This document shows, piece by piece, positions 11,250-47,187 of a DNA stretch of 48,040 nucleotides. Position 1 is the stretch's first letter, and every line of letters begins with the position of its first letter. The notes beneath the pieces are model-generated. The model saw only the letters and a list, made by a program, of their open reading frames with translations. It was not told the origin of the DNA and searched no databases. This stretch comes from Coleofasciculus sp. LEGE 07092. GTDB taxonomy: Bacteria; Cyanobacteriota; Cyanobacteriia; Cyanobacteriales; Coleofasciculaceae. The DNA lies in contig NZ_JADEWY010000041.1 in NCBI RefSeq assembly GCF_015207375.1, forward strand, positions 1 through 48,040, written 5' to 3'. A program made the translations under genes and the position numbers.

Positions 11250-11387
11250 CTAATTTAAGCGAGGAATGCGATCGCACGTTGGGAAAGATAGACGTGATCG
11301 CATCTATCCACACTGAAGCGCGATCGCACTTTAGGAAAGATAGACCCGATCGCATCCACTGAAACGGCAAGCGCGATCGCTCTGGTG
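11250..11387. repeat. HIP1-anchored repeat block 1
   Basis: About two and a half units of a roughly 50-60 bp repeat: GCGATCGCAC, then TTGGGAAAGATAGAC, then GATCGCATC-CAC, then a short AAGC-type spacer and the next GCGATCGC (11268, 11320, 11372 region). The opening TAATTTAAGCGAGGAATGCG recurs at about 15199. Related units are found throughout 11.2-15.9 kb. Confidence 0.75.
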
Positions 11388-11430
11388 TATATAGTGGACT
11401 TAGAGCAAAAGAATTATTCAGATAGAGTCC

Positions 11431-11661
11431 ATGTCCACCTATAACGAAGTACTCAGTCAAGTTCAAAGCCTTACCTCTGATGAGCAACTGCGCCTGTTGG
11501 AAGAATTAGCAGCGCTGGTTCGTCAGAAGGTAACATCGGAGCATCAACGTCACCTTCTCCAATTACAAGGGGTAAGTAAAGACAAATGGTGGGGATTTTT
11601 GCCTAAGCGCGTGGATGCTTTAGAGTTTCAGAAGTCACTCAGGCAAGAATGGGGTGAATAA
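11431..11661 (+). CDS. VapB/DUF2281-like antitoxin (copy 1)
   Basis: A 76-aa protein starting MSTYNEVLSQVQSLTSDEQLRLLEELAALVRQK, clearly paralogous to the protein at 11791-12012. The N-terminal half is an amphipathic helix pair typical of this small cyanobacterial antitoxin family; the C-terminal half (LLQLQGVSKDKWW...) is expected to bind the toxin. The cognate PIN-domain toxin directly behind it, overlapping by 8 nt in another frame, is truncated, so this antitoxin has lost its own partner. The upstream sequence (GTATATAGTGGACTTAGAGC) is repeated before copy 2, which suggests a duplicated promoter. Family name is moderately sure; function is inferred from context. Confidence 0.7.
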   Translation: MSTYNEVLSQVQSLTSDEQLRLLEELAALVRQKVTSEHQRHLLQLQGVSKDKWWGFLPKRVDALEFQKSLRQEWGE

Positions 11662-11764
11662 TAGTTATCTACTGGATACAAACATCCTGATTTATTACTT
11701 TAACGATGACCCAACCGTGCAGCCTATTTTTGAGGAAATTCTAGCTTCTGTATATTGGACTTAG
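11654..11764 (+). pseudogene. Truncated PIN-domain toxin (VapC-like)
   Basis: A GTG start gives MNNSYLLDTNILIYYFNDDP, the beta-strand and first catalytic aspartate (LDTN) that open a PIN-domain RNase. The reading frame stops after 36 residues, against about 130 in an intact toxin. The break lies exactly where the repeated promoter-like sequence of copy 2 begins (GTATATTGGACTTAGGGC), so unequal recombination between the two modules probably removed the rest of the gene. Confidence 0.75.
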
Positions 11765-11790
11765 GGCAAGAGCATTACAAGAGAAAGTGT

Positions 11791-12012
11791 ATGTCTACTT
11801 ATCATGAAGTACGTCGTCTAGCTGAAAACCTTACTCCTGATGAGCAAATGCGGCTGATAGAAGAATTGTTCAGCTTAATTCGTCAACAACTTACGCTGAC
11901 ACCTAAGCCCAAACGTAGCATCCTGGAGTTGCGAGGGTTAGGTAAAGAAATCTGGAATGGCATTGATGCTCAAGAATATGTCAATCAGGAACGAGACTCA
12001 TGGAATGGATAG
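11791..12012 (+). CDS. VapB/DUF2281-like antitoxin (copy 2)
   Basis: A 73-aa antitoxin-like protein, MSTYHEVRRLAENLTPDEQMRLIEELF..., homologous to copy 1. Its C-terminal tail ILELRGLGKEIWNGIDAQEYVNQERDSW is the classic toxin-wrapping tail found upstream of PIN-domain toxins in cyanobacteria. The ATG at 11791 matches the start of copy 1; in-frame sequence further upstream is the duplicated promoter region. It overlaps the toxin gene by 13 nt, so the two are translationally coupled. As in other VapBC modules it probably represses its own promoter together with the toxin. Confidence 0.8.
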   Translation: MSTYHEVRRLAENLTPDEQMRLIEELFSLIRQQLTLTPKPKRSILELRGLGKEIWNGIDAQEYVNQERDSWNG

Positions 12013-12443
12013 CCCAGTTACAGGGGCAAGTAGTCGGTTTGGATAGTGCGCCGCTGATTTACTTTATAGAAGAAAATCCGGCTTACTTGGAGATGACTGA
12101 CGCTTTCTTTGAGGCGATGGTGCACGGGGAGTTAAGGGTTGTAACCTCGGTGATAACTTTGTTAGAAGTGCTAGTTTATCCTCTGCGACAAGGGAACAGT
12201 ATACTAGCTCAACAATATCGTGACATCCTATCGGATGAAGAAGGTTTGACAACCATCGAAGTTTCTCCAGCTATTGCTGAAATCGCTGCACAGCTCCGGG
12301 CAACTTACAATTTGAGAACGCCTGATGCAATTCAAATGGCTACAGCAATTCGCCAAGGTGCTTCGTTTTTTTTGACTAATGATTCACGTTTACCTTCTTT
12401 ACCTGGGTTGGAAGTGTTGGTGTTAGAGGAACTGAGGGCTTGA
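12000..12443 (+). CDS. PIN-domain toxin (VapC-like ribonuclease)
   Basis: A 147-aa PIN-domain protein, the expected toxin partner of the overlapping antitoxin. Acidic active-site residues are visible: Asp15 in VVGLDSAPLIYF, a glutamate in ITLLEVLV, an aspartate in RTPDAIQMATA, and the last in FFLTNDSRLPSL. VapC toxins cleave tRNA or rRNA and block growth when the antitoxin is lost. Length and all four acidic positions look intact, so this copy is probably active, unlike the truncated one upstream. It is followed by 400 bp of repeats. Confidence 0.88.
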   Translation: MEWIAQLQGQVVGLDSAPLIYFIEENPAYLEMTDAFFEAMVHGELRVVTSVITLLEVLVYPLRQGNSILAQQYRDILSDEEGLTTIEVSPAIAEIAAQLRATYNLRTPDAIQMATAIRQGASFFLTNDSRLPSLPGLEVLVLEELRA

Positions 12444-12449
12444 TTTTAG

Positions 12450-12820
12450 GCAGGTGTGATCACATTTTGGGAAAGATAGACGCGATAGCGTGAAGCGAAG
12501 CTATAGCGAGGAACGAGCGTCAGCGCTGCTGCGTTGGCGTAGCCTCTCCGCAAGGAGAAGCCCAGATCGCATCCACCGATATTGCAAACGCGATCGCACT
12601 TTGAAGAAGATAGGCGCGTGAAGCGAAGCTATTGCGTTAGCGAATCGCATACACCGACACAGGAACGCGATCGCACGTTGGGTAAAGATAGACGCGATAG
12701 CGTGAAGCGAAGCTATAGCGAGGAACGAGCGTCAGCGCTGCTGCGTTCGCCCTTGGCGTCTCCCCTTGGGAGAAGCGCAGATCGCATCCACTCAAACGGC
12801 AAGCGCGATCGCGCTAAAAT
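12450..12820. repeat. HIP1-anchored repeats with nested palindromic elements
   Basis: This 400-bp gene-free stretch consists of repeat units (GATCACATTTTGGGAAAGATAGACGC-like starts at about 12456, 12590 and 12668), with a second element nested inside the HIP1 position of each. Two long copies, 12475-12575 and 12687-12790, share GATAGCGTGAAGCGAAGC, ATAGCGAGGAACGAGCG and TCAGCGCTGCTGCGTT; a shorter variant lies at about 12617-12645. The nested element contains several small hairpins (e.g. ATAGC/GCTAT, CTCTCC/GGAGA). Confidence 0.75.
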
Positions 12821-12851
12821 AGCAGCAGGTTAATCCGAAGCTGATTTTAGT

Positions 12852-13109
12852 ATGCCAATTACATTGCCACCGGAACTGGAACAGTTTATCAAAAATCAGC
12901 TTGCTAGCGGCAAGTATGCCTCCATTGATGAAGTCTTTTTAGCAGGTATTAAGCTGCTACAAGAACGAGAAAATCTTTATCAAGGACGGTTTGAAGAATT
13001 ACGTCGTGAGGTTATGGTGGGGGTTGAAGAGGCTGAACGAGGCGAATTGTTGGATGCAGAAACCGTCATAATTGGACTGCAAGAAAAATTGCAACAGCGT
13101 CGCGCTTAG
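12852..13109 (+). CDS. parD: ParD-family antitoxin
   Basis: An 85-aa antitoxin of the ParD/CopG type. The N-terminal ITLPPELEQFIKNQLASGKYASIDEVFLAGIKLLQERE is the ribbon-helix-helix DNA-binding domain, and the C-terminal acidic helix (VGVEEAERGELLDAETVIIGLQEKL) binds the toxin. The parE gene begins 8 bp downstream, giving the normal antitoxin-first operon that the ParD-ParE complex represses. It begins directly after the repeat block, so its promoter probably lies in repeat-derived sequence (for example near TTGATTTTAG-type AT-rich bases at 12838-12850). Confidence 0.9.
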   Translation: MPITLPPELEQFIKNQLASGKYASIDEVFLAGIKLLQERENLYQGRFEELRREVMVGVEEAERGELLDAETVIIGLQEKLQQRRA

Positions 13110-13117
13110 GCTAATTG

Positions 13118-13426
13118 ATGAGCAATTTTTGCCGAATTACACCGACAGCAAGCCGAGATATAGAGAGTATTATGGACTATCTCGCTGAGAGAGGAAGTAT
13201 TGAAACGGCAGAGCGTTTTCTTGAGAAGATCGACACGAAGTTCAAAATGCTAGCTCAGTTCCCTCGAATAGGACGCAAACGAGATGAACTCTATCCTGGC
13301 TTGCGGAGTGTATCGTTAGAAGATTACCTGATTTTTTATCGTCTGGTTTCAAACGGAATCGAGGTGATGCGGGTGGTGGGCGGTTATCGCGATCTCGAAG
13401 CGCTATTTGTGGAAGATGAAGACTGA
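13118..13426 (+). CDS. parE: ParE-family toxin
   Basis: A 102-aa RelE/ParE-superfamily toxin: SNFCRITPTASRDIESIMDYLAERGSIETAERFLEKID, followed by FPRIGRKRDELYPGLRSVSLEDYLIFYRLVSNGIEVMRVVGGYRD. ParE members poison DNA gyrase, whereas RelE relatives cleave mRNA on the ribosome; pairing with a ParD antitoxin favours the first. The ATG at 13118 is preferred over a TTG one codon earlier. Codons at the end run directly into another HIP1 repeat block (13427 onward). Confidence 0.9.
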   Translation: MSNFCRITPTASRDIESIMDYLAERGSIETAERFLEKIDTKFKMLAQFPRIGRKRDELYPGLRSVSLEDYLIFYRLVSNGIEVMRVVGGYRDLEALFVEDED

Positions 13427-13550
13427 GCGATCGCACTTTGGGAAACAGAGACGCGATCGCATCCGTCGACACTCCGAAGCCGAGTTCACTTTGGGGAAGA
13501 TAGGCGCGATCGCATCCACTGAGGCACAAAGGCGATCGCACTCCCGCACT
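13427..13550. repeat. HIP1-anchored repeat block 3
   Basis: Two further units of the island repeat: GCGATCGCACTTTGGGAAAC at 13429, ending CGCATCCGTCGACACTCC, then a decayed start (GTTCACTTTGGGGAAGATAGGC, about 13484) leading to CGATCGCATCCACTGAGGC and another GCGATCGCAC. Confidence 0.7.
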
Positions 13551-13565
13551 TTTCTCCAAACAAAC

Positions 13566-13600
13566 GTAGGTTGGGTTGAGCATTAGCGAAACCCAACACC
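13566..13600 (+). repeat. REP palindrome, downstream side of the RAYT gene
   Basis: GTAGGTTGGGTTGAGC (13566-13581) faces AACCCAAC (13590-13597) to form a short hairpin. A near-identical copy in the same orientation flanks the other side of the transposase gene at 14187-14218. Confidence 0.75.
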
Positions 13601-13628
13601 AAGTCAATCTACTAACCCTACTATCAAT

Positions 13629-14171
13629 TCATTCATTCCCAATCCCTTCAACAAAGGGAATCTCCTCGCCTTCACCCCAGCAGCGATCGTATAAACTATC
13701 TCGGATATAACGATGAAAACTGGAAAATTCCCAATCTCTGGGAGTTCGCACCAAGCCATGTTTCACTGGGTTGTAGTGAATGTACTCCACATGCTGGGTG
13801 AAATCTGTCTCATCCCGAATGAGGTGTTCCCAAAATCGCTGCTGCCAAACAGCCTGTTCCTTTTTTCGTTGCCTGGATGCAGACGGTTGTTGTTTGTATT
13901 TGGGATGACAGCGACGGCTAAATTCGCTTTTAATCAATCGCCAACGGGTGGAAAAGTCACAGTCACCTTCGGGTAATGTCCAAATGCAATGCAAATGGTC
14001 TGGTAGCAACACGAAGGCGTCGATTGTAAATGGATGGTTGGCTTTGACAGAGCGAAAAATCTCTCGAAGTAAGGGAACATTATCGGGTTCACACAAAATC
14101 TTGCGCCGTTTGTGAGTTACTAGGGTGAAAAAGTAGGTGCCCCCTTCTATTTTTGCCCGACGATATTGCAT
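13629..14171 (-). CDS. REP-associated tyrosine transposase (RAYT)
   Basis: A 180-aa Y1-type HUH endonuclease of the RAYT/TnpA-REP (IS200-like) family. MQYRRAKIEGGTYFFTLVTHKRR opens the domain; the metal-binding HUH motif is His59-Leu-His61 in LLPDHLHCIW; the catalytic tyrosine is probably in VEYIHYNPVKHGL. RAYTs nick single-stranded REP hairpins and are thought to spread them as domesticated, non-self-mobile transposases. The gene is bracketed by REP palindromes at 13566-13600 and 14187-14218, and more copies lie at 14351 and 14438, which is the expected arrangement. The open reading frame appears intact. Confidence 0.92.
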   Translation of the reverse strand: MQYRRAKIEGGTYFFTLVTHKRRKILCEPDNVPLLREIFRSVKANHPFTIDAFVLLPDHLHCIWTLPEGDCDFSTRWRLIKSEFSRRCHPKYKQQPSASRQRKKEQAVWQQRFWEHLIRDETDFTQHVEYIHYNPVKHGLVRTPRDWEFSSFHRYIRDSLYDRCWGEGEEIPFVEGIGNE

Positions 14172-14186
14172 GGCGTTGTTAACCTC

Positions 14187-14218
14187 GTAGGTTGGGTTGA
14201 GCGATAGTGAAACCCAAC
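14187..14218 (+). repeat. REP palindrome, upstream side of the RAYT gene
   Basis: GTAGGTTGGGTTGAGC with AACCCAAC 10-12 nt further on; differs from the 13566 copy at only a few loop positions. Confidence 0.75.
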
Positions 14219-14350
14219 TCCAACCAGCTTATCCAGCCATTAAGTTTCTCCAACACCGTAAAATTCCGGATTTGTTGGGTTACTCGACGCTGCGGCAACC
14301 CCTACGAGGAACAGGAACGCTGCGGGAACGTGCCTCTCGAGTTAGCAACT

Positions 14351-14466
14351 GTAGGTTGGGTAGAGCGTAAGCGTTGCCCAACGCCGTTCAAGCTATGAAA
14401 TCATCCACTGATAAAAAACCCAAATGCTTTGGAAATGTTGGGTTTCGTGCCTCAACCCAACCTACA
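14351..14466. repeat. Two diverged REP copies in opposite orientation
   Basis: 14351-14382 reads GTAGGTTGGGTAGAGCG ... TTGCCCAAC. 14438-14466 reads GTTGGGTTTCGTG ... CAACCCAACCTAC and is the inverted orientation. Together they form a REP doublet of the BIME type about 170 bp from the RAYT-proximal copy. Confidence 0.65.
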
Positions 14467-14467
14467 A

Positions 14468-14588
14468 GATGGCGATCGCACCTTGGGAAAGATAGACGCG
14501 ATCGCATAGACGATACTGCAAAGGCGATCGCATACATGATACTCCAAAGGCGATCGCACATTAGAGAAGATAGACGCGATCGCACTGT
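14468..14588. repeat. HIP1-anchored repeat block 4
   Basis: Five HIP1 cores in about 120 bp (near 14471, 14499, 14524, 14551, 14576), separated by CACCTTGGGAAAGATAGAC, ATAGACGATACTGCAAAG, ATACATGATACTCCAAAG and CACATTAGAGAAGATAGAC. The regular 25-27 bp spacing shows that the island repeat is built of two alternating half-units. Confidence 0.75.
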
Positions 14589-14594
14589 GGGGTG

Positions 14595-15167
14595 TTACCA
14601 AATTGGTTCAAGATTTAGAACAAATCCAGGTAGAACATCTTCCCCTGATAAACTAGCAGGAGACTCAAGCACCTCAACTTCTTGACCTTGCCGATAAATT
14701 TCCACTTGTCGAGTTCTCCGATTAATTAACCAACCCAGACGAATACCATTCTCTAAATATTCCTTCATTTTTGCCTGAGTTTCTGTAAAGCTATCACTTG
14801 GAGAAAGTAACTCAACTACAAAATCAGGGCAAAGAGGAGCAAATTTCGTTTGTTGTTCGGGAGTCAGAGCATTCCAGCGTTCCAATTTTACCCAAGAAGC
14901 ATCAGGAGAACGATCTGCACCATTCGGTAGTTTAAAACCTCCAGAGGAATCAAAAACTTTACCCAGTTGAGTTTGCTCATTCCAAATCCAGATTTGAGCA
15001 GTTAGTCCAGCATTACGGTTACTGGTTTCTCCCCCCGTAGGTGGCATAATAATTAATTCTCCCGTAGCTGTGCGTTCAAATCTCAGCGTTTCGTTATCCT
15101 GACAGAGTTGATAAAATTGCTCGTCTGTAAGTGTTAGGGATTGGAGATTGATGGTTAGGGTGGTCAT
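14595..15167 (-). CDS. Uma2 family endonuclease-like protein
   Basis: A 190-aa Uma2 (DUF820) protein, a PD-(D/E)XK nuclease-fold family greatly expanded in cyanobacteria. Typical blocks: LTDEQFYQLCQDNETLRFERTATGELIIMPPTGGETS, the acidic SPDASWV, and FVVELLSPSDSFTETQAKMKEYLENGIRLGWLINR, where the Glu and Lys form the catalytic core. Function in vivo is unclear; proposals include transposon- or restriction-related nuclease activity. The ATG at 15167 gives the family-typical MTTLTINLQSLTL start; a TTG at 15185 would add six residues. It lies between HIP1 repeat blocks. Confidence 0.85.
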   Translation of the reverse strand: MTTLTINLQSLTLTDEQFYQLCQDNETLRFERTATGELIIMPPTGGETSNRNAGLTAQIWIWNEQTQLGKVFDSSGGFKLPNGADRSPDASWVKLERWNALTPEQQTKFAPLCPDFVVELLSPSDSFTETQAKMKEYLENGIRLGWLINRRTRQVEIYRQGQEVEVLESPASLSGEDVLPGFVLNLEPIW

Positions 15168-15198
15168 TTCAAGCTTTAACCCCAAGTGGATACATTAC

Positions 15199-15252
15199 TA
15201 ATTTAAGCGAGGAATGCGATCGCATTCACTGACACGCCAAAGGCGATCGCAC
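15199..15252. repeat. HIP1-anchored repeat block 5
   Basis: TAATTTAAGCGAGGAATGCG precedes GATCGCATTCACTGACACGC and another GCGATCGCAC. The leading 20 bases repeat those at 11250-11269, 4 kb away, so the island is bounded by direct copies of the same sequence. Confidence 0.7.
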
Positions 15253-15267
15253 TTCAGACTTCATCAG

Positions 15268-15480
15268 CTAGGCGAACATCAAGCGACCTTTAGGCTCAGG
15301 AATCGGACGCCCTAACTCCTCGGCAGTCTCAATCCACTCCTGCATAATAACTTCTACATTTTGCAGTGCTTCTTGATAAGTTTCGCCATCAGCAGCACAA
15401 CCAGGTAACTCTGGTACTTCAGCAATAAATGCTTTGTCTTCTTCGCTCCAGTAGAGAATAATTTCATAGCGAATCATCAT
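15268..15480 (-). CDS. hicB: HicB-family antitoxin
   Basis: A 70-aa protein, MIRYEIILYWSEEDKAFIAEVPELPGCAADGETYQEALQNVEVIMQEWIETAEELGRPIPEP, which is the complete short HicB fold (a degraded RNase-H-like domain) without an additional DNA-binding domain. It neutralises HicA. Two ATG codons are adjacent (15480 and 15477); either may be used. It overlaps the end of hicA by up to 17 nt, so translation is coupled. The order toxin then antitoxin is normal for hicAB. Confidence 0.88.
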   Translation of the reverse strand: MMIRYEIILYWSEEDKAFIAEVPELPGCAADGETYQEALQNVEVIMQEWIETAEELGRPIPEPKGRLMFA

Positions 15481-15730
15481 CTTGACCTCCTAGCTGGTAC
15501 TTGAGAATCACGGCACGGACTTGCTTAACTTGATAGGCTTTAGCTTGTGAGCCTTTGGGTTGCAAATTCACAATTTCTTCTATGCTTTCCTTGGTGAAGA
15601 TATGGTGACTGCCGCGAATCCGTTCTTCAAATCCGAGTTTGCGTAAAAGTTGGCACATCTGGGCAAACGGGATGTTTGAGTCAGAAGTGCCACTTAGGAT
15701 TTTAGCCAGCAGTTTGTCTTGTTGACTCAC
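15464..15730 (-). CDS. hicA: HicA-family toxin (mRNA interferase)
   Basis: An 88-aa double-stranded-RNA-binding-fold toxin. The key GSHHIF motif contains the catalytic histidine, and LLRKLGFEERIRGSHHIFTK with LQPKGSQAKAYQVKQVRAVI are the family core. HicA cleaves mRNA on the ribosome when HicB is depleted. The N-terminal 20 residues (MSQQDKLLAKILSGTSDSNI) are the usual short lead-in of the cyanobacterial group. A weak AT-rich region upstream (15735-15770) probably contains the promoter. Confidence 0.88.
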   Translation of the reverse strand: MSQQDKLLAKILSGTSDSNIPFAQMCQLLRKLGFEERIRGSHHIFTKESIEEIVNLQPKGSQAKAYQVKQVRAVILKYQLGGQDDDSL

Positions 15731-15775
15731 GTTCTGCTCTTTGTGTGGTGTTCTTTATAGTCACATTTTTCCTCA

Positions 15776-15845
15776 ACGCGATCACACCTTGGGAAAAATA
15801 GACGCGATCGCATCCAATGACACTGCAAGCGTGATCACATCCATT
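15776..15845. repeat. HIP1-anchored repeat block 6 (island right end)
   Basis: CGCGATCACACCTTGGGAAAAATAGAC, split here as CGCGATCACACC and TTGGGAAAAATAGAC, leads into GCGATCGCATCCAATGACACT and a decayed GCGTGATCAC. It is the last recognisable unit of the series that began at 11250. Confidence 0.7.
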
Positions 15846-39624: not shown

Positions 39625-40476
39625 TCAAACCGTTTCCGGAATCCGCTCTAAAATACCAGAACCAAAGACTTTATCTAGTTCCAAGTAGTCTAGATGAACG
39701 TAGCCGATGTGACAGTGGCAGGTTTCATTAGTACAAAGTCGTTTAAAGAGTGTCGCTTCAAACTTAGGATCGTAAATATTGCCAATTGGCTCTTTAATAA
39801 AGTGACATCGGCGTACTGTACCATCCCCATCCACCGAAATCACAGACTCTCCAGCGCGACAGGTTTTGCCATAACTGGGATAGTAATGGGTGTTGAGGTG
39901 ATATAACGGATCGATAGAGTCAAAAAATTGCCGATCCGCCTCGGATAACTGGGAGAGTGCCCGCTTCACAGCATTGATCCATAGATAAATGTGTGACGGT
40001 AATTGACGACGCAGAGATGCGATCGCATTCTTAAACTTAGGAAACCCCACAACTCCCGCACTAAACCGCACCCTCCGCCGATCTAACTCCCAACATTGGG
40101 CGAGAAACTGTTCTAGGGATACCCATTCGGGGTGAAATGTTGCCCACAACGCTAATCGTTCTTTGTTGCAGTCGTCCACCCAATCTAATTTACAGGAAAG
40201 ATTAGTTTGAATCGCTGCTTTATTAACGTTGGGTAGGTGTGTCAGTTTGGCTAAGGCTTGCTGATACCAGGGATGAATTAACGCTTCTCCCCACGGGGTA
40301 AATAGGATGGAAAACTGGTGTTGGGTGTTTTGGGCAATCCAATCGGTAAACCGTTCTAAGGATTGGCGATCGCTAGCTAATTCTACGGCTGATTGCGATC
40401 GCTTGGCGAAGGGGCAGTATTCGCAACCGTAGTTACAGCTTATTAAGGAACCGCGATAGAGGATGGTTAGGTTCAT
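39625..40476 (-). CDS. Radical SAM protein, STM4011 family
   Basis: A 283-aa radical SAM enzyme. The iron-sulfur cluster motif is CNYGCEYC (Cys14, Cys18, Cys21). A C-terminal cysteine-rich region (CRAGESVISVDGDGTVRRCHFIKEPIGN and LCTNETCHCHIGYVHLDYLELD) could bind an auxiliary cluster, as in SPASM-type enzymes. I recognise the family from its neighbourhood as STM4011, named after Salmonella and without known function. It is the last gene of a seven-gene minus-strand operon, 9 bp from the preceding one. Confidence 0.82.
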   Translation of the reverse strand: MNLTILYRGSLISCNYGCEYCPFAKRSQSAVELASDRQSLERFTDWIAQNTQHQFSILFTPWGEALIHPWYQQALAKLTHLPNVNKAAIQTNLSCKLDWVDDCNKERLALWATFHPEWVSLEQFLAQCWELDRRRVRFSAGVVGFPKFKNAIASLRRQLPSHIYLWINAVKRALSQLSEADRQFFDSIDPLYHLNTHYYPSYGKTCRAGESVISVDGDGTVRRCHFIKEPIGNIYDPKFEATLFKRLCTNETCHCHIGYVHLDYLELDKVFGSGILERIPETV

Positions 40477-40485
40477 TGGTTGGGT

Positions 40486-41814
40486 TTATTTTAAGTTGTA
40501 GGCTTGCATGAGTTGCCGAACCTTATCTGAGAATAACCAAGAACCAATGGTGTCAGAACGCTCAATACCCGCCTGAGTTAAAACCAGGGTATGATTATTT
40601 AAGCTGGCGAGATTTAATTGAATAAGTTCAGAGAGTTCGGGAAAGTCGATAAAGGCATCCGTACCGAAGCGATCGCAGTAATTCACCTGATTTAACCCTT
40701 CATCGGACAGTAAGGATAGTAAAATATAGCGGCGGCGACGATCTTCAGCATCTAACTGAAAGCCATAATTGGCAGAATCGAAGGCTTCATCGGGTGTATT
40801 GATAAACGCTTCTAAAATATGGCGGACTTCCTGATCACTGACGGCATAGTGACAGGAATAATGCAGCGAATCCGTATAAGACCTAGCACCGCACCCTAAA
40901 CCTACCATACCATCCGCTTGGCAGCAGTAAACAGGACGGCTAGCTTCTGGTGCATGATTAGCACGGAACATCCGCATTGAAACTTGAGTATACCCTTCAG
41001 ATAGAAGGAGCGATCGCCCTTCTCGGTAGCAGGCAATACGACTATCATCCCATTCGCGATCGCTTTTTCCTAAACCCGTCAAGGGGCGCACATACAAAGG
41101 ATACAGGTAAATTTCTTCCGGTTGAAACCGCAACGCAGCGCGAATTGATTGCAGCCAACTGTCTACGGTTTGCCCTGGTAGCCCATACATTAGGTCAATA
41201 TTAATAGTAGGAAATCCTGCCTCTCGCATTAAAGTAAGGGCAGTGTCTACTTGAGAGGCGCTTTGGCGGCGGTGGATGGCGAGAACTTCAGCATCGATGA
41301 AGCTTTGGACACCAATACTGGCACGATCAACGCCGCGATCGCGCAATAATGTTAGTTTGTTAATATCAACGGTTTCTGGGGACATTTCCACGGAAATTGG
41401 AATATCTTGTAATTTTGCCTCCATCGTTTCTTCTGCAATATCTAAAATTGCTTCTAATCCGTGTAAGGGGAGTTGAGTTGGCGTACCACCTCCGATAGCA
41501 AATCTGGCAAAGGTTGCGTCTCCCAATGCTGATTTCACACGATTCGCTTGTCTACGAACGGTGTTGATATATTGGGTGACAAAATCACTATCGGTTTTCA
41601 CAGTAGTGAAGAGGTTACAGAACCCGCAGCGCATTTCACAGAAGGGAATATGGATATAGAGAAAGAGTGCTTTGCGGTTTTCTTCCGACCAGAGTTTTTC
41701 TAGGGAAATAGGCGGATTAATGGAACGGTAGGCGGTTTTGTGGGGGTAGGAGTAGACGTAAGCTTGATAGGAAGACTTTTGTAGCATCTCCTGAAGGGAG
41801 GGGCGATGAGTCAT
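40486..41814 (-). CDS. HemN-like radical SAM protein, STM4012 family
   Basis: A 442-aa radical SAM protein of the HemN/HemW class with CxxxCxxC at Cys59, Cys63 and Cys66 (IHIPFCEMRCGFCNLFT), then GGGTPTQLPLHGLEAIL and the SVEMSPETVD block typical of this class. It is called STM4012 family and is usually mis-annotated as coproporphyrinogen III oxidase; its context (radical SAM, hydrolase, ATP-grasp, LRR genes) argues against heme synthesis. 56 bp separates it from the hydrolase gene. Its C-terminal half (residues about 340-442) contains a winged-helix-like HemN_C region. Confidence 0.85.
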   Translation of the reverse strand: MTHRPSLQEMLQKSSYQAYVYSYPHKTAYRSINPPISLEKLWSEENRKALFLYIHIPFCEMRCGFCNLFTTVKTDSDFVTQYINTVRRQANRVKSALGDATFARFAIGGGTPTQLPLHGLEAILDIAEETMEAKLQDIPISVEMSPETVDINKLTLLRDRGVDRASIGVQSFIDAEVLAIHRRQSASQVDTALTLMREAGFPTINIDLMYGLPGQTVDSWLQSIRAALRFQPEEIYLYPLYVRPLTGLGKSDREWDDSRIACYREGRSLLLSEGYTQVSMRMFRANHAPEASRPVYCCQADGMVGLGCGARSYTDSLHYSCHYAVSDQEVRHILEAFINTPDEAFDSANYGFQLDAEDRRRRYILLSLLSDEGLNQVNYCDRFGTDAFIDFPELSELIQLNLASLNNHTLVLTQAGIERSDTIGSWLFSDKVRQLMQAYNLK

Positions 41815-41870
41815 TTTGAATGATGAATGATGAAAGTTTGTAGGTGGGGTTGAATGAAGTTAAATCCCGC

Positions 41871-42707
41871 CTATAGTTTGACGGAATTCTGGGTAGTCAT
41901 TGGAATTTGAGATAAACTCTTGAAAATGAATTCTGTATAAGGAACTGTCCAAACTACTGAATGGCTGAGGCGATGCCCCGTGTAACCCTCCTCCCCGTAA
42001 GTCGTACCGTGATCGGAACAGAAAATACAAAATGTCGGAACTCGCAAAACTTCCCAAAGTCTAGGCAATTGTCGATCCACATACTCTAAAGCAGCCCCAT
42101 GGGATTCTAGTGTGTCTTCTGTAGCACCTGGTACATAAAAGCAGTTGGGTTGATGCAGTGCGGAGATATTGATAAATAAGAATAAGCGCTGTTCTTTAGG
42201 AGTTTTTGCTATAATTTTTCGAGCGAGAGTTATTTGATATTCTGTGGATTGGGGGTTAGTAACACCGAGTTCTGGACTCCAGTAACTCTCGGCAAACATT
42301 CCCGGTAAAACATTACTAAGAGGGTTGGATTTATTAAAGAATCCGACGCCACCGATACAGACAGTATGATAGCCTTTAGTGGCAAGTCCAGCAGCGATAT
42401 TGGAGTCTTCTAAAATACAGGTGTTAGTTGTAGTGGTGCTGCTTCCCTGGAATTCTACTGCAAATAATCGAGAGTGCAATCCTGGAGTAATAGGGGTTGG
42501 TAGAAATCCGGCAAAAAAAGCGTGGTGTGCAGCATAAGTGAAGTTACCCGGAGAGTGGCGTTCTTCCCATCCTTCTGGGGGTAAAACTGCTTTGAGATTT
42601 GGTGTGTGTCCTTGGGCGAGTAAGTCTCTGGCAACGTCGTAGCGTAATGTATCTAGAGTGACGAATAAAATGTCATGACTGCCCACGATTTGGTTCATAT
42701 CAATCAT
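41871..42707 (-). CDS. Alkaline-phosphatase-superfamily hydrolase, STM4013/SEN3800 family
   Basis: A 278-aa sulfatase/phosphatase-fold hydrolase. N-terminal DILFVTLDTLRYDVARDLL supplies a metal aspartate; NFTYAAHHAFFAGFLP contains the likely Thr/Ser nucleophile; FCIFCSDHGTTYGEEGYTGHRLSHSVV supplies the distal Asp-His pair and another His. The family is named STM4013/SEN3800. No signal peptide, so it acts in the cytoplasm, unlike many arylsulfatases. It overlaps the ATP-grasp gene by 4 bp (ATGA), indicating tight translational coupling. Confidence 0.82.
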   Translation of the reverse strand: MIDMNQIVGSHDILFVTLDTLRYDVARDLLAQGHTPNLKAVLPPEGWEERHSPGNFTYAAHHAFFAGFLPTPITPGLHSRLFAVEFQGSSTTTTNTCILEDSNIAAGLATKGYHTVCIGGVGFFNKSNPLSNVLPGMFAESYWSPELGVTNPQSTEYQITLARKIIAKTPKEQRLFLFINISALHQPNCFYVPGATEDTLESHGAALEYVDRQLPRLWEVLRVPTFCIFCSDHGTTYGEEGYTGHRLSHSVVWTVPYTEFIFKSLSQIPMTTQNSVKL

Positions 42708-43969
42708 GGCTGCTTTGCCCCAGCATTAAATATACAGTTTTCTCTTTCTTCTGCCTTCTTGAGTATGGCTTTCACTTCACTGGTATAAGTATCAAGTCCG
42801 TTCCAAGTCGTACCCGGTAACAAATCTCCAAAGGCATTAATTTCTAAAATAGCGTGTCGCCGGAAATCAGGGTAGACTAACAGGTCAATACCGGAGTATA
42901 AGCTATTGGGAAATACAGCAGCCACAGTTTCGCAGGTTCGCTTCATAACTTCCCAGTCCTCTAGTTTAACCTGGGTGAGGAGTAGATCTAAACCCGCGCG
43001 ATCGCTTCCTAAATGCAGGTTAGTCATGGGACTTTTACCCAACCGCACAACAACGTGCTGCGCTTCACCATCAATCACCACCACACGCAAATCAAAGGGC
43101 TGATTTTGCAGTCTGGCTTTGGGTAGCCATGCTTCGACTTGAACGCCTTCTTTACAGAGGATATTGATAATATCAGTAATTTCTTCTCGTCGGGTGTAAT
43201 TCCGAATTCGGCGGGAATTGTAGAGAAGGTTTTCACCATTTTCCTGCACTCGTTCCACAGTAGTGATTGCCGATTCATATCGGGGGTTAGCTTGGTATGC
43301 CACAACACCGGATGCAGAGGAACCGTGGGACAGTTTGACGAAGACGCGGGAACAGTTTTGAGATTGCATGGCTTGGCGCAATTCGTCATAACTGCGGATA
43401 ACACCTAATGAACGGGGTACGGGTATTTTGCCCTCACCCCCCCTACCCCCCTCTCCCAAAGAGGGCGAAGGGGGAGAAAATGCGGGTTTCTCTTCTTCCA
43501 CTCGCAGATAAGGGGTTGCATACTTTTCAAACAATTTGTGACATAGGGGTTTATCGAACATTTGGGCAATTTCTACCGGATGGTTCATGGTAGAACACCT
43601 TAACTGATTCCCCCATTGGTGCAGTAGGTGACGCCATCCCAGATACAATTGCCGGGGGTAAAGAATTCGCCCTTTATCAAATTCCAACCTCATGGCATCG
43701 ACAGCACTAATGCGTTGATGGTTGCCTGCATCCAGTACATCTGCACCCGCAGCAATCAGCGCTTTTTCTACCTCAAAATTCTTCTCAGGGGAATCAAAGC
43801 GGATGATAGTATTGGGTTTGTTAAATTGTTCTAGAGTATCCCTACCAGCAATCAAGTCCGAGTAAGAAACTACTGTGGCTGGTTCTAACCCACAACGTTC
43901 TAGGGCTTGCTGAAAGAAACCAACCCGCCGATTTTCTGAATTCCCTACAATAATAAAGTTTATGGGCAT
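42704..43969 (-). CDS. ATP-grasp-like protein, STM4014 family
   Basis: A 421-aa protein of the STM4014 family. The C-terminal half resembles ATP-grasp ligases: FVKLSHGSSASGVVAYQ is the phosphate-binding loop, VEAWLPKARLQNQPFDLRVVVIDGEAQHVVVRLG the core, and LLVYPDFRRHAILEINAFGDLLPG the metal-binding Glu/Asn end. Such enzymes join a carboxylate to an amine via acyl phosphate, so it may attach an amino acid or modify a peptide. Residues 165-180 (SPPSPSLGEGGRGGEG) come from a dispersed DNA repeat inserted in frame. It is third from the promoter-distal end of the operon after the LRR genes. Confidence 0.8.
   Translation of the reverse strand: MPINFIIVGNSENRRVGFFQQALERCGLEPATVVSYSDLIAGRDTLEQFNKPNTIIRFDSPEKNFEVEKALIAAGADVLDAGNHQRISAVDAMRLEFDKGRILYPRQLYLGWRHLLHQWGNQLRCSTMNHPVEIAQMFDKPLCHKLFEKYATPYLRVEEEKPAFSPPSPSLGEGGRGGEGKIPVPRSLGVIRSYDELRQAMQSQNCSRVFVKLSHGSSASGVVAYQANPRYESAITTVERVQENGENLLYNSRRIRNYTRREEITDIINILCKEGVQVEAWLPKARLQNQPFDLRVVVIDGEAQHVVVRLGKSPMTNLHLGSDRAGLDLLLTQVKLEDWEVMKRTCETVAAVFPNSLYSGIDLLVYPDFRRHAILEINAFGDLLPGTTWNGLDTYTSEVKAILKKAEERENCIFNAGAKQP
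43430..43477 (-). repeat. Dispersed repeat read in frame within the ATP-grasp gene
   Basis: On the plus strand it reads CCCTCACCCCCCCTACCCCC then CTCTCCCAAAGAGGGCGAAG with GGGGGA at the end, a C-rich/G-rich imperfect palindrome related to 22668-22715. It encodes a Pro/Ser/Gly linker in a loop between the two halves of the protein. Confidence 0.7.
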
Positions 43970-43993
43970 TTTCTGACACCCTGATTGTATTCT

Positions 43994-45235
43994 CTACTCA
44001 AATAGTGCAAAATAGCGCTCTATGCCCACAGGATAAGTCTCATATCTGCTCCTACTTGAATAGATTTCATACTCTTCATCTTGTGACTGTGCCATCACTT
44101 GACAATTCAGATGAGACAACCGCTCAATCATAGTTGGAGATAAAAGATTCATCGTAAGATTGAGGGTGTGAAGATGATTAATAGCCGGACAATTTAGCAA
44201 GGCTTCAGCACCAACGTCTGTTAAATTTCCTTTTGAAAGATTTAGAATTTTTAGCTTACGAATAAAAGGCGATCGCGCCACAGCTAAGGCTATATAATCC
44301 GAGTAGTCACTGCTGCACAAACCCAAGTATTTTAACTCAGGAAAAGCAACACCACCAATAATCGGCATTACATCATCAATAAAAGAATCTCCGCATCCAT
44401 AAAAACTACGTTCACTACCCAGCCATAACTCCAAATACTCTAGTCTGGGTAGCTTCAGCGTACAAATCTGAGCAAGGGTATCCTTAGAGAGTCCTCCAGT
44501 CTCAATAATCAGTGTTTTTAAATAGTTGTGCTGTAGCGGACTGAATTCCATATCATCTTTACCACGAAGTTGCAGCACTTCTAAGTTGGGATAGGCGGCT
44601 AAGAGGTAGCTATAGTCTTCACTAAGTTCAATCCGGGATGCTTTGTAACCGCCTAACTCGTCTACCATGTCCACATCCCCAATAAATATGGCTTTGAGAC
44701 GGGTTAGCTTGGCGCTGGCGTCAGAGAGAATTTCGGCAAAATCATCTTTATGACCTGACCGATAATAATGATATTCACAAACTAAGGCTTCAAAATTGCT
44801 GATTTGGGGATCTTCGAGGAGCTTATCAATGTTACCTGCACTTACGCCGTAGGCAGTTCCCATAGGATCGGCAATGCCAATTTCTGGGTCAAACTCTTCA
44901 AGTTTCCAGTTTTCTAAGGTGGTAAAAAATAGCCAGGGGTCGTAGTCGAATAAGGCTTGCTTGGCTTGAGGATTTGGCGAGTTTTTTAAGAGTAGACTGG
45001 CAGAATGCTGCACTTGTTCTGATTCATCCTTTAAAGCCCCAATGACTAAATCTAAGCCAGTATCACCATAATGGAGTGCCTCAGAAAGAGCAGCAATTCG
45101 CGCTTCTACAACCGCACTCGCCAATCGACTCTTTACTCCTTCGATACCTCCCAAAACAACACCCTCTACAGGAGGTGGAGATTGACCCCCAAGCACGGCA
45201 TCATCTTTTCTGGGTTGATTAGGATTGTTGGTCAT
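43994..45235 (-). CDS. LRR protein, STM4015 family, with N-terminal HEAT-like domain (copy A)
   Basis: A 413-aa leucine-rich-repeat protein related to the two upstream genes. The LRR part (from about FFTTLENWKLEEFDPEIGIADPMGTAYG) includes YPNLEVLQLRGKDD, LKTLIIETGGLSKDTLAQICTLKLPRLEYLELWLG, FPELKYLGLCSSDYSDYIALAVARSP and ILNLSKGNLTDVGAEALLNC. Copy A alone has an extra N-terminal ~95 residues, VLGGIEGVKSRLASAVVEARIAALSEALHYGDTGLDLVIGALKDESEQVQHSASLLL, an ARM/HEAT-like module common at the front of cyanobacterial proteins. The ATG at 45235 is used (GTG at 45238 also fits). The C-terminal 25 residues also differ from the others. Confidence 0.82.
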   Translation of the reverse strand: MTNNPNQPRKDDAVLGGQSPPPVEGVVLGGIEGVKSRLASAVVEARIAALSEALHYGDTGLDLVIGALKDESEQVQHSASLLLKNSPNPQAKQALFDYDPWLFFTTLENWKLEEFDPEIGIADPMGTAYGVSAGNIDKLLEDPQISNFEALVCEYHYYRSGHKDDFAEILSDASAKLTRLKAIFIGDVDMVDELGGYKASRIELSEDYSYLLAAYPNLEVLQLRGKDDMEFSPLQHNYLKTLIIETGGLSKDTLAQICTLKLPRLEYLELWLGSERSFYGCGDSFIDDVMPIIGGVAFPELKYLGLCSSDYSDYIALAVARSPFIRKLKILNLSKGNLTDVGAEALLNCPAINHLHTLNLTMNLLSPTMIERLSHLNCQVMAQSQDEEYEIYSSRSRYETYPVGIERYFALFE

Positions 45236-45263
45236 CACGTATTTACCTTTGCGCTAGTTGTTG

Positions 45264-46124
45264 CTATTCAGCAACCGAGCAATAGCGAGCGTATCCGTCA
45301 TCATCTTCTTCGTCTTGGTTGTCGGCAATCACTTGGATATTCAGCCTCTTTAGCTGTGCGATCGCTTCTTCATCTAAAAAATTCTCCGAAACATTAAGCA
45401 CGTCGAGTTGATTAATACCATCGCAGGATATTAACGCTTCAACTCCTTTCTCTCCCATCGTTCCCATCGACAAGTCTAGAATTTTAATTTGGGAAAGAAT
45501 AGGCGAGTTCACCACAGCTTCAGCAATATCGTCTGTGTATACCGCATTCCGCAGTCCTAAGTAGATCAAATTTGGGAATAACTCGCCAGACAGAATCGGC
45601 ATCAAATCGTCAACTGAAGAATCTCCCCCATACTTGTCCCTACCCAGCCACAATTCCAGATGCTCCAACGCTGGCAGCTCGAGAGCACAAATTTCAGTAA
45701 TAGTTTCAGGGTAGAGTCCTCCACTTTCAACAATAAGCGCCTCTAAATGCTCATGAGACAAAGGACTAAAAGACAGACATTCATCTCCCAGACCTTGAGT
45801 GCCACGAACTTGCAGCACCTCCAGATTAGGATATGCTTCTAGAACAGGACTGATATTGCTCTGCTGAATCCAAGAAATCTCGCATTCCCCATAGTGAATA
45901 TCCCCAATAAAGACCGCCTTGAGATTCGTTAGTTGGTCTTTAGCATTGATTAGAGCATTAACGAGAATACGAGAGTTAAAGTCACTCTCCGTAAATCCGC
46001 TCCATATTCCGAACACCAACGCTTCAACCTTGCTAACCTGCGGATCTTGTAGTAGCTGGGCAATCTGACCTGTAATATCATCCTCTGCGCCATGTTCGCA
46101 TCTGAGGGCGTAGGCGGTGCCCAC
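45264..46124 (-). CDS. LRR protein, STM4015 family (copy B, canonical start lost)
   Basis: A 286-aa stretch from an internal GTG, highly similar to copy C: YPNLEVLQVRGTQGLG, EHLEALIVESGGLYPETITEICALELPALEHLELWLGRDKYGGDSSVDDLMPIL and ILDLSMGTMGEKGVEALISC. Homology continues upstream in frame for about 25 residues (HVTTFANRNVEEFNPQIGITDPV), but that extension contains no ATG, GTG or TTG back to a TAG at about 46234. So either translation is from this GTG, making an N-truncated protein, or initiation is non-canonical, or the copy is degenerate. Flanked on both sides by the same 23-nt spacer CAACAACTAGCGCAAAGGTA-AAT. Confidence 0.7.
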   Translation of the reverse strand: MGTAYALRCEHGAEDDITGQIAQLLQDPQVSKVEALVFGIWSGFTESDFNSRILVNALINAKDQLTNLKAVFIGDIHYGECEISWIQQSNISPVLEAYPNLEVLQVRGTQGLGDECLSFSPLSHEHLEALIVESGGLYPETITEICALELPALEHLELWLGRDKYGGDSSVDDLMPILSGELFPNLIYLGLRNAVYTDDIAEAVVNSPILSQIKILDLSMGTMGEKGVEALISCDGINQLDVLNVSENFLDEEAIAQLKRLNIQVIADNQDEEDDDGYARYCSVAE

Positions 46125-46251
46125 TGGATCGGTGATGCCGATTTGAGGATTGAACTCCTCAACGTTGCGGTTAGCAAATGTGGTGACGTGTTGAGAGGAA
46201 TACCCTAAATACTTCCCGAATCGCTCAAATTTACCTTTGCGCTAGTTGTTG

Positions 46252-47187
46252 CTATTCAGAAACTGAGCAGTAGCGACTGTATCCGTAATCTTCTTCGTCT
46301 TCTTCTTCCTTCTGGTTGTCAGCAATTACTTGAATATTCAGCCTCTTTTGCCGTGCGATTGCTTCTTCCTCTAAAAAATTCTCTGAAACATCAAGCACGT
46401 CGAGTTGATTAATCGTATCGCAGGATATCAATGCTTCAACCCCTTTCTCCCCCATCGTTCCCATCGACAGGTCTAAGGTTTTAATCTGGGAAAGAATAGG
46501 CGAATTTACCACAGCTTCAGCAATATCATCGGTGTAGGTAGCATTCCGCAATCCCAAGTACGTTAATTTTGGGTAGAAATTCCTGTGAAGAATCGGCATC
46601 AAATCATCAACGGAAGAGTCTCCCCCATAGTTTTCATCACCCAGCCACAATTCCAGATGCTCCAACGCTGGCAACTCAAGCGCTACAATTTGAGCAATTT
46701 GTGTCCCACTAAGTCCCCCCGATTCCACAATCAGCGTTTTTAACCTATTGTGCTGTATCGGAGTGAATCCTAGACCCGTCGCACCACGAACCCGCAGCAC
46801 CTCCAGATTGGGATATGCCTCTAAAAGAGGAGTAATATTGCACTGCTCAATCCAGGAAATCTCATATTCGTCCGAAAGAATATCGCCGATGAAAATAGCT
46901 TTAAGACCTTTAAGCTGTTCTTTGGCTGCAACGAGGGCATTAATCACTTTGCTGGAGTCATTACCGCCATCGAGCAAACTTTCCCACGCACCGATAACTA
47001 AGGCTTCTAGCTTACTCGCTTGGGAATCTTGCAGCAACTTTTGCAGCTTATCTGCAATTTTTTCATGACTGTCATAGTCACATCTGAGAGCGATCGCCCT
47101 ACCAACTGAATCGGTAATGCCTTTGTCAGAGTCAAATTCCTCAACATTCCGATTGGCAAATGTGGTGACATGGTTATGTGGATACAT
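46252..47187 (-). CDS. LRR protein, STM4015 family (copy C, first gene of operon)
   Basis: A 311-aa LRR protein, first gene of the operon. It begins MYPHNHVTTFANRNVEEFDSDKGITDSVGRAIALRCDYDS, and has the same repeat series as copy B (YPNLEVLRVRGATGLG; LKTLIVESGGLSGTQIAQIVALELPALEHLELWLGDENYGGDSSVDD; LTYLGLRNATYTDDIAEAVVNSPILSQIKTLDLSMG). C and B end in the same RYCSV-E tail and are a recent tandem duplication. LRR surfaces bind partners; here they may present a substrate to the radical SAM and ATP-grasp enzymes. The upstream region contains a LexA-like box. Confidence 0.85.
   Translation of the reverse strand: MYPHNHVTTFANRNVEEFDSDKGITDSVGRAIALRCDYDSHEKIADKLQKLLQDSQASKLEALVIGAWESLLDGGNDSSKVINALVAAKEQLKGLKAIFIGDILSDEYEISWIEQCNITPLLEAYPNLEVLRVRGATGLGFTPIQHNRLKTLIVESGGLSGTQIAQIVALELPALEHLELWLGDENYGGDSSVDDLMPILHRNFYPKLTYLGLRNATYTDDIAEAVVNSPILSQIKTLDLSMGTMGEKGVEALISCDTINQLDVLDVSENFLEEEAIARQKRLNIQVIADNQKEEEDEEDYGYSRYCSVSE

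Follow-up and report, generated by a model that had tools for sequence, protein, structure and literature searches.

A conserved C-terminal glutamate tail on STM4015-family leucine-rich repeat proteins points to a possible protein-tethered pathway in the STM4011-STM4015 operon

RimK is an ATP-grasp ligase that acts at a protein C-terminus, where it makes poly-glutamate tails on S6 (PDB entry 5zct is titled poly-alpha-L-glutamate peptides synthetase), and we know of no radical S-adenosylmethionine (SAM) partners of RimK. In lysine and arginine biosynthesis of the LysW type, the ligases LysX and ArgX attach an amine to LysW through the gamma-carboxyl of its C-terminal Glu; LysW has an acidic tail ending EDWGE, and a Glu-to-Ala change in ArgW produced an arginine auxotroph strain (passages of PMC10433800). 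The amino-group carrier strategy is common to natural-product pathways too, and in the biosynthesis of pearlins and 3-thia-amino acids chemistry likewise takes place on the C-terminus of a ribosomally made carrier, with a radical SAM enzyme among the catalysts (passages of PMC9303977). Here, we examined a 48,040-nt stretch of the cyanobacterium Coleofasciculus sp. LEGE 07092 (contig NZ_JADEWY010000041.1, positions 1 to 48,040; hereafter the window), in which a first-pass annotation had placed a seven-gene block of the STM4011-STM4015 type at 39625-47187; open reading frames (ORFs) and NCBIfam profiles bear this out, one leucine-rich repeat (LRR) protein scoring below its family cut-off. These families are named after Salmonella genes and their names carry no function. 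The genes are named in tables in the available parts of PMC2784778 and PMC3844500, and no functional study of STM4011-STM4015, or account of the tail and ligase pairing described below, was found in the open-access literature. Our findings somewhat favor a model where STM4015 is a carrier whose C-terminal Glu would be charged by the ATP-grasp protein STM4014, the tail or its cargo then being modified by the two radical SAM enzymes of the operon. The seven ORFs follow one another head to tail on the minus strand:

46252..47187, minus strand: STM4015-family LRR protein 1, 311 aa, putative carrier or substrate, tail SRYCSVSE (NF038076, 309.9 bits, cut-off 275; member)
46255..46275, minus strand: codons of the last seven residues (RYCSVSE) of LRR protein 1, conserved tail, proposed modification or attachment site
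45264..46241, minus strand: STM4015-family LRR protein 2, 286 aa from GTG 46124, frame open to 46241, tail ARYCSVAE (NF038076, 295.0 bits; member)
45267..45287, minus strand: codons of the last seven residues (RYCSVAE) of LRR protein 2
43994..45238, minus strand: STM4015-like LRR protein 3, 414 aa, N-terminal extension, diverged tail ERYFALFE with the final Glu still present (NF038076, 214.0 bits; below cut-off)
43997..44017, minus strand: codons of the last seven residues (RYFALFE) of LRR protein 3
42704..43969, minus strand: STM4014 ATP-grasp ligase, 421 aa, proposed from its fold to charge the STM4015 C-terminal Glu (NF038074, 412.9 bits, cut-off 175; member)
41871..42707, minus strand: STM4013 alkaline-phosphatase-superfamily enzyme, Thr at the nucleophile position, phosphodiesterase-like (NF038075, 420.1 bits, cut-off 250; member)
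40486..41814, minus strand: STM4012 HemN-like radical SAM enzyme without the fourth Cys of HemN (NF006067, 615.5 bits, cut-off 380; member)
39625..40476, minus strand: STM4011 radical SAM enzyme with a twitch/SPASM-like five-Cys C-terminal region (NF038073, 415.7 bits, cut-off 200; member)

The STM4015 proteins share a short motif at their extreme C-terminus, with a consensus of about R-Y-x-A-V-[S/G/A]-E. In the first STM4015 alignment 11 of 11 sequences end in Glu, as do all three LRR copies of the window; the two closest of these form a tandem duplicate pair with 83% identity across 300 nt, and their tails are thus not independent. In a larger sample of 88 loci (L012-L099) plus the window, used for the tail and neighbor counts, the final residue is Glu in 125 of 128 stop-closed ORFs, the only kind counted for tails, the exceptions being G, Y, and D. 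The pattern [YFW]x[ASPTCMVE][VLIM]xE occurs at the very end of 113 of the 128, against 2 of 14,924 other ORFs in the same loci (stop-to-stop, at least 50 aa, all frames, spurious frames included); a looser pattern occurs in 116 of the 128, whereas shuffling of the last 30 residues left it in 0.29 on average and in at most 4. To avoid circularity, a hidden Markov model (HMM) was built without the last 30 residues, and ORFs sharing the same last 120 residues were collapsed to one. At 150 bits or more, this tail-free HMM returned 203 distinct closed ORFs, with 196 ending in Glu and 186 carrying the looser tail, which was also present in 3 of 13 ORFs at 80-150 bits and in 5 of 6 below 80 bits, mostly cut fragments; the proteins run 22-40 residues (median 30) beyond the end of the profile. 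Conservation is uneven along the tail: in 90 representatives at 60% identity we counted R in 74 at position -7, Y in 70 at -6 (F in 7, others in 13), A in 46 and S in 17 at -4, V in 61 at -3, S in 26, G in 21, and A in 18 at -2, and E in 80 at -1. The linker ahead of it is weakly conserved (about 0.8-1.2 bits at positions -12 to -8) and acidic, 36% of residues -20 to -8 being Asp or Glu. The final Glu is also among the 11 invariant columns of a 47-sequence alignment chosen for diversity. At the last position no residue dominates in STM4011, STM4013, or STM4014, but R or K is found there in 60 of 78 STM4012 proteins; these counts cover ORFs above 150 bits, which for STM4015 number 127. The window STM4015 model is an LRR structure with a mean predicted local distance difference test (pLDDT) of 93.9, and a protein of the STM4015 family has been solved, PDB 2RA8 from Bacteroides fragilis (Q64V53, E=3.5e-102), which was deposited as uncharacterized and for which our literature search found no paper. 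A Bacteroides locus (L017:1-14165) encodes an STM4015 protein with an N-terminal WGR domain; the N-terminal extension of LRR protein 3 resembles HEAT repeats only weakly (HEAT_2, E=0.051, below cut-off).

The first-pass annotation had held that the families are conserved together, and comparison of operon structure across genomes agrees. Searching GTDB genome contigs with an STM4013 alignment, we confirmed at least 571 stretches and took the best 80 as loci. All five families are present in 62 of the 80, in canonical one-strand order in 50 of these, and the remaining 18 are incomplete, some at contig ends. The same block recurs, far beyond chance, in many bacterial groups, which judged by organism name are Cyanobacteria, Myxococcota, Planctomycetes, Chloroflexi, Actinomycetes, Proteobacteria, Desulfobacterales, Blastocatellia, Capsulimonas, Verrucomicrobia, Bacteroidota, and others. 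Annotated plasmid records of Paenibacillus, Deinococcus, Streptomyces, Salmonella, and Methylobacterium have the order 4015(n)-4014-4013-4012-4011; in a Bacteroides record 4015, 4014, and 4011 are annotated, the STM4013 match is short, and STM4012 was not found in that record. Between one and five LRR copies occur per locus in 69 of the 80. With STM4013 above cut-off in 4 of 194 genomes of the window's phylum, and STM4015 at E<=1e-15 in 6 of 296 genomes of the phylum of G204, an actinomycete, the system is patchy. In 117 genomes of one order, that of G194 (the Myxococcus genome of L037), STM4014, STM4011, STM4013, and STM4012 all occur in the same 50, single-copy in nearly all; among the matches listed, STM4015 reaches E<=1e-30 in 52 genomes, the 50 plus G229 and G315, and weaker STM4015 matches occur alone in 10 more. 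An apparent STM4012-STM4011 fusion in L057 was rejected, as it looks like a frameshift with part of STM4011 in another frame. In 40 of the 88 loci a DUF6745 protein (PF20530) is encoded near the operon (e.g., L013:10012-11309, L014:2168-3632, L019:3504-4829), most of these proteins ending in YxPxx[EQ]T, and 39 of the 40 also have a protein of about 100 aa ending REYxPxxxRxVxD; the two are probably an accessory pair.

Within this taxonomic order, the tail accompanies the enzymes. For the tail check we took STM4015 matches of about 96 bits or more in the 52 genomes: a tailed copy is present in each of the 50 enzyme-bearing genomes, even where other paralogues lack the tail, and in neither of the two enzyme-free genomes with a strong match, whose STM4015-like copies end TLQNLA (G229) and HVLHVG (G315). 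Among the matches listed, with coordinates compared by eye, an STM4015 match is found no further than about 150 bp from STM4014 in 50 of 50 enzyme-bearing genomes, whereas the 4013-4012-4011 block stands apart and may be as far as about 23 kb off or on a different contig. Similarly, of 11 genomes in which the fetched locus had no detected STM4015, 8 carry both STM4014 and STM4015; the two genes are no more than about 1 kb apart in 7 of these, which include G194 and G195 from the set of 50. Since STM4014 stays by STM4015 while 4013-4012-4011 split off, two modules can be told apart: a putative carrier with its ligase, and a set of tailoring enzymes.

The modeled fold of STM4014 (mean pLDDT 91.3) bears on what this ligase may do. 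Its top VIA-align match is ArgX from the ArgX-LysW complex 3vpb (Z 23.4, root-mean-square deviation 2.6, 268 aligned), and RimK and LysX/ArgX entries come next at Z 22.3-22.5, ties by VIA-align's own rule. A profile search of the PDB likewise returned RimK (E 9.8e-5), followed by biotin carboxylase (7.6e-4) and LysX (1.3e-3). STM4014 is an NCBIfam family of its own. Seven residues (K212, E279, D293, R295, D362, E376, and N378) are invariant in 39 STM4014 sequences and would lie in the ATP-grasp site. Within the window's STM4014 gene, a G/C-rich palindromic stretch (43430-43507) looks like an in-frame insertion and overlaps the sole internal segment of the model with pLDDT below 50.

An acidic linker, a fixed final Glu, and an adjoining ATP-grasp ligase of nearest fold together recall LysW/ArgW with LysX/ArgX, and Vzb22 of vazabitide A biosynthesis, where a carrier with an acidic C-terminal stretch and final Glu is likewise paired with such a ligase; we therefore propose that STM4014 charges the STM4015 Glu. 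The likeness is one of anatomy. STM4015 is an LRR protein of about 290 aa with a tail of the RYxAVSE type, whereas LysW is a Zn-binding protein of about 54 aa ending EDWGE, and the tailoring enzymes are radical SAM and alkaline-phosphatase-fold proteins instead of the lysine/arginine set. As EDWGE and a small Zn-binding protein are not found here, STM4015 is not a LysW family member. Pearlin pathways differ in another way, using an aminoacyl-tRNA-dependent peptide ligase (PEARL, small and LanB-like), where STM4014 is an ATP-grasp protein and the STM4015 carrier a folded LRR protein; none of the seven window proteins matches a PEARL-type family in Pfam. As we picture it, the LRR body, acidic linker, and conserved R-Y-x-A-V-[SGA]-E-COOH tail of STM4015 would act as a protein carrier; STM4014, presumably the first enzyme to act, would use ATP to activate a carboxylate of the C-terminal Glu and couple an amine-bearing unit to it. 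STM4011 and STM4012 would then do C-H chemistry on the tethered unit or on the tail, and phosphodiesterase-like STM4013 could act on the cargo or its precursor by removing or transferring a phosphoryl group. One enzyme set might serve several LRR carriers. Gene linkage, the tail, its retention alongside the enzymes, the ligase pairing, and the fold similarity are observations, whereas covalent modification of the tail, the order of the enzymes, the cargo, and its release or retention are inferred; the carrier step is the better supported half of this mechanism. More tentatively, and short of an even call, the whole operon may be a protein-tethered cofactor or metabolite factory, in which an ArgX/RimK-like ligase charges an LRR C-terminal Glu and the two radical SAM enzymes, with a phosphodiesterase-like partner, remodel it to a prosthetic group or a released molecule.

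Several observations weigh against this model. The ATP-grasp fold is widespread, so that fold alone does not fix the substrate of STM4014: glutathione synthetase (Z 21.8), N5-CAIR synthase (20.9), and D-Ala-D-Ala ligases (about 19-20) follow little behind ArgX, Foldseek puts the graspetide ligase PsnB level with ArgX, and biotin carboxylase ranks between RimK and LysX by sequence. Just two enzyme-free genomes in the sample gave a strong STM4015-like hit, in each case a partial one (a 162-aa ORF in one of them), such that gene decay could explain the missing tail; the 50 enzyme-bearing genomes belong to one order and, being related, are not 50 independent events, and they also contain STM4015-like paralogues without the tail. 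Pairing has exceptions: G204 has STM4014 and STM4015 on different contigs, L080 has a tailed STM4015 and 4013-4012-4011 with no STM4014 detected, and in three genomes of unstated completeness (G198, G199, and G201; loci L042, L046, and L068) STM4013 occurs without detected STM4014 or STM4015. Such solo STM4013 may have an independent reaction, which suggests action on a free small molecule. Covariation does not single out the ligase: across 68 loci, tail distances track each of the five proteins to a similar degree (rho 0.30-0.35), and with a nil STM4014 term (beta -0.033) the comparison is uninformative. In the STM4015 model, pLDDT is about 70-80 over the last 21 residues, higher than a fully flexible arm would give, and a releasing peptidase, unlike in LysW-type pathways, is not among the five families.

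The closest relatives of the remaining enzymes bear on what these may do and on two rival readings. The CxxxCxxC motifs reported in the first-pass annotation are present in both radical SAM proteins of the window and kept in their relatives. In the PDB, STM4012 is close to HemN (1olt, E=3.8e-51) and the methyltransferase NocN (9p2u), the substrate of which is peptide-derived, and the protein also scores 157.6 bits with HemW; given this similarity, and with no protein over the HemN cut-off in the window's own genome, the operon could make or salvage heme or another tetrapyrrole, STM4012 being a coproporphyrinogen oxidase as the usual annotation has it. This we regard as very improbable. HemN has a CxxxCxxCxC motif, whereas STM4012 shows CxxxCxxCNL in 79 of 79 sequences, with Leu at the place of the fourth Cys; it scores 147.6 bits against TIGR00538, with a cut-off of 324.95, and falls short of the cut-off in every HemN-type NCBIfam match listed. 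The genome has another HemN/HemW-like gene outside the operon (G000:C11, 150.9 bits, which is below cut-off as well), the neighbors of STM4012 have no visible heme link, and the distribution is patchy (6 of 296 genomes). The earlier warning that this gene is easily mistaken for a heme gene thus holds by both motif and score. STM4011 has a CxxxCxxCPF motif and a five-Cys C-terminal pattern, both in 77 of 77, its nearest structure being SkfB (6efn, E=3.9e-4) over the C-terminal region. In L017, the annotated STM4011 coding sequence is 521 aa long, with a C-terminal extension that resembles a HAD phosphatase by eye, and in the Salmonella record a HAD hydrolase gene follows STM4011. The pairing of a radical SAM protein with an alkaline phosphatase/sulfatase-fold enzyme, and a weak similarity of STM4011 to sulfatase_rSAM (E=0.065), recall anaerobic sulfatase maturation, in which STM4011 would turn an active-site residue of STM4013 into formylglycine. 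We give this next to no credence and rejected formylglycine maturation on the residue itself: at the nucleophile position STM4013 has Thr, not Cys or Ser, in 84 of 86, the other two not matching the search pattern. The best PDB matches of STM4013 are nucleotide pyrophosphatase/phosphodiesterase (NPP) entries, with sulfatases close behind, and NPP enzymes have a Thr nucleophile; judged from this residue, STM4013 would carry out phosphoester chemistry rather than peptide cleavage. An STM4013-family gene also occurs in a different cluster, on a Streptomyces albidoflavus plasmid (L015:4881-8330), with a radical SAM protein, a thymidylate-kinase-like protein, and a NUDIX hydrolase. As for a defense system, PADLOC gave only weak or partial matches, among them a viperin (pVip) match (E=2.9e-4) over only 66 residues of the radical SAM core.

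Two further explanations take the tail seriously but assign it no cargo. In one, the system would modify the tail much as ribosomally synthesized and post-translationally modified peptides (RiPPs) are modified: the radical SAM enzymes would rearrange tail residues, for example by a cross-link of Tyr -6 and Glu -1 or by a C-terminal decarboxylation, as in the maturation of pyrroloquinoline quinone and mycofactocin, and STM4014 would make an intramolecular graspetide-type bond, yielding an LRR protein with a built-in cofactor. The SkfB-related twitch/SPASM-like region of STM4011, the closeness of STM4012 to NocN as well as HemN, the tie of PsnB with ArgX, and the conservation of both tail Tyr and Glu agree with such an outcome. 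Yet Tyr gives way to Phe in 7 and to other residues in 13 of the 90 representatives, Glu being kept in 80; the last seven positions offer no fixed Lys, Thr, or Ser as an acceptor for a graspetide ring, and STM4013 has no obvious role. On balance we find this reading rather unlikely, if worth keeping in sight. In the other, the tail would be an unmodified docking or recognition tag that recruits STM4015 as an LRR adaptor or regulator to the enzymes, the product of which would be a small molecule. Interaction is the usual role of LRR domains, the tail is short and preceded by an acidic linker, and STM4013 without STM4014 and STM4015 suggests at least one step on a free small molecule. A docking peptide, however, should seldom need its last residue, which here is the most fixed (125 of 128), and the near-constant neighbor of STM4015 has a fold like that of C-terminal-Glu ligases; tagging alone is accordingly improbable in our estimation.

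Of the LRR proteins and a short unannotated peptide, both named earlier as possible substrates, the former gain support from the tail, and the latter has become less likely, the gaps between genes being small. Those between the seven ORFs are 9, 56, -4 (an overlap), 24, 25, and 127 bp, as had been read before, but the last is probably an artefact, together with the GTG start of LRR gene 2 at 46124, because the frame is open upstream to 46241 and 46124-46241 encodes an N-terminus homologous to that of LRR protein 1 (HVTTFANRNVEEF...), with no in-frame ATG, GTG, or TTG in that stretch. The window thus leaves no room for a short precursor gene, although short conserved ORFs were not searched for directly. 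Across loci, median upper-bound gaps are -4 bp for 4015->4014, 4013->4012, and 4012->4011 and 14 bp for 4014->4013; upper bounds over these four junctions exceed 150 bp in 15 of 61, 8 of 70, 2 of 66, and 1 of 67 cases, and in 19 of 46 at 4015->4015, so that a short RiPP precursor, rejected for the window, may still exist elsewhere. Pfam found radical SAM, HemN_C, and sulfatase domains, a sub-threshold YheCD-type ATP-grasp, and weak LRRs in the window proteins. A promoter and terminator scan gave fewer sites than in shuffles and was of no use. Away from the operon, several kb of the window (11264-15841) hold many dispersed repeats around GCGATCGC and AAAGATAGACGCGATCGCAT units, the former HIP1-like.

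Overall, we suggest that STM4015 may be a carrier that works like LysW without belonging to its family. If true, carrier-protein chemistry, as used for lysine, arginine, and some natural products, would also take in a folded LRR carrier served by radical SAM enzymes, and a family easily annotated as heme synthesis would be corrected. With the five families spread across many bacterial groups, including Salmonella, the conserved tail makes an operon of no assigned function directly testable.

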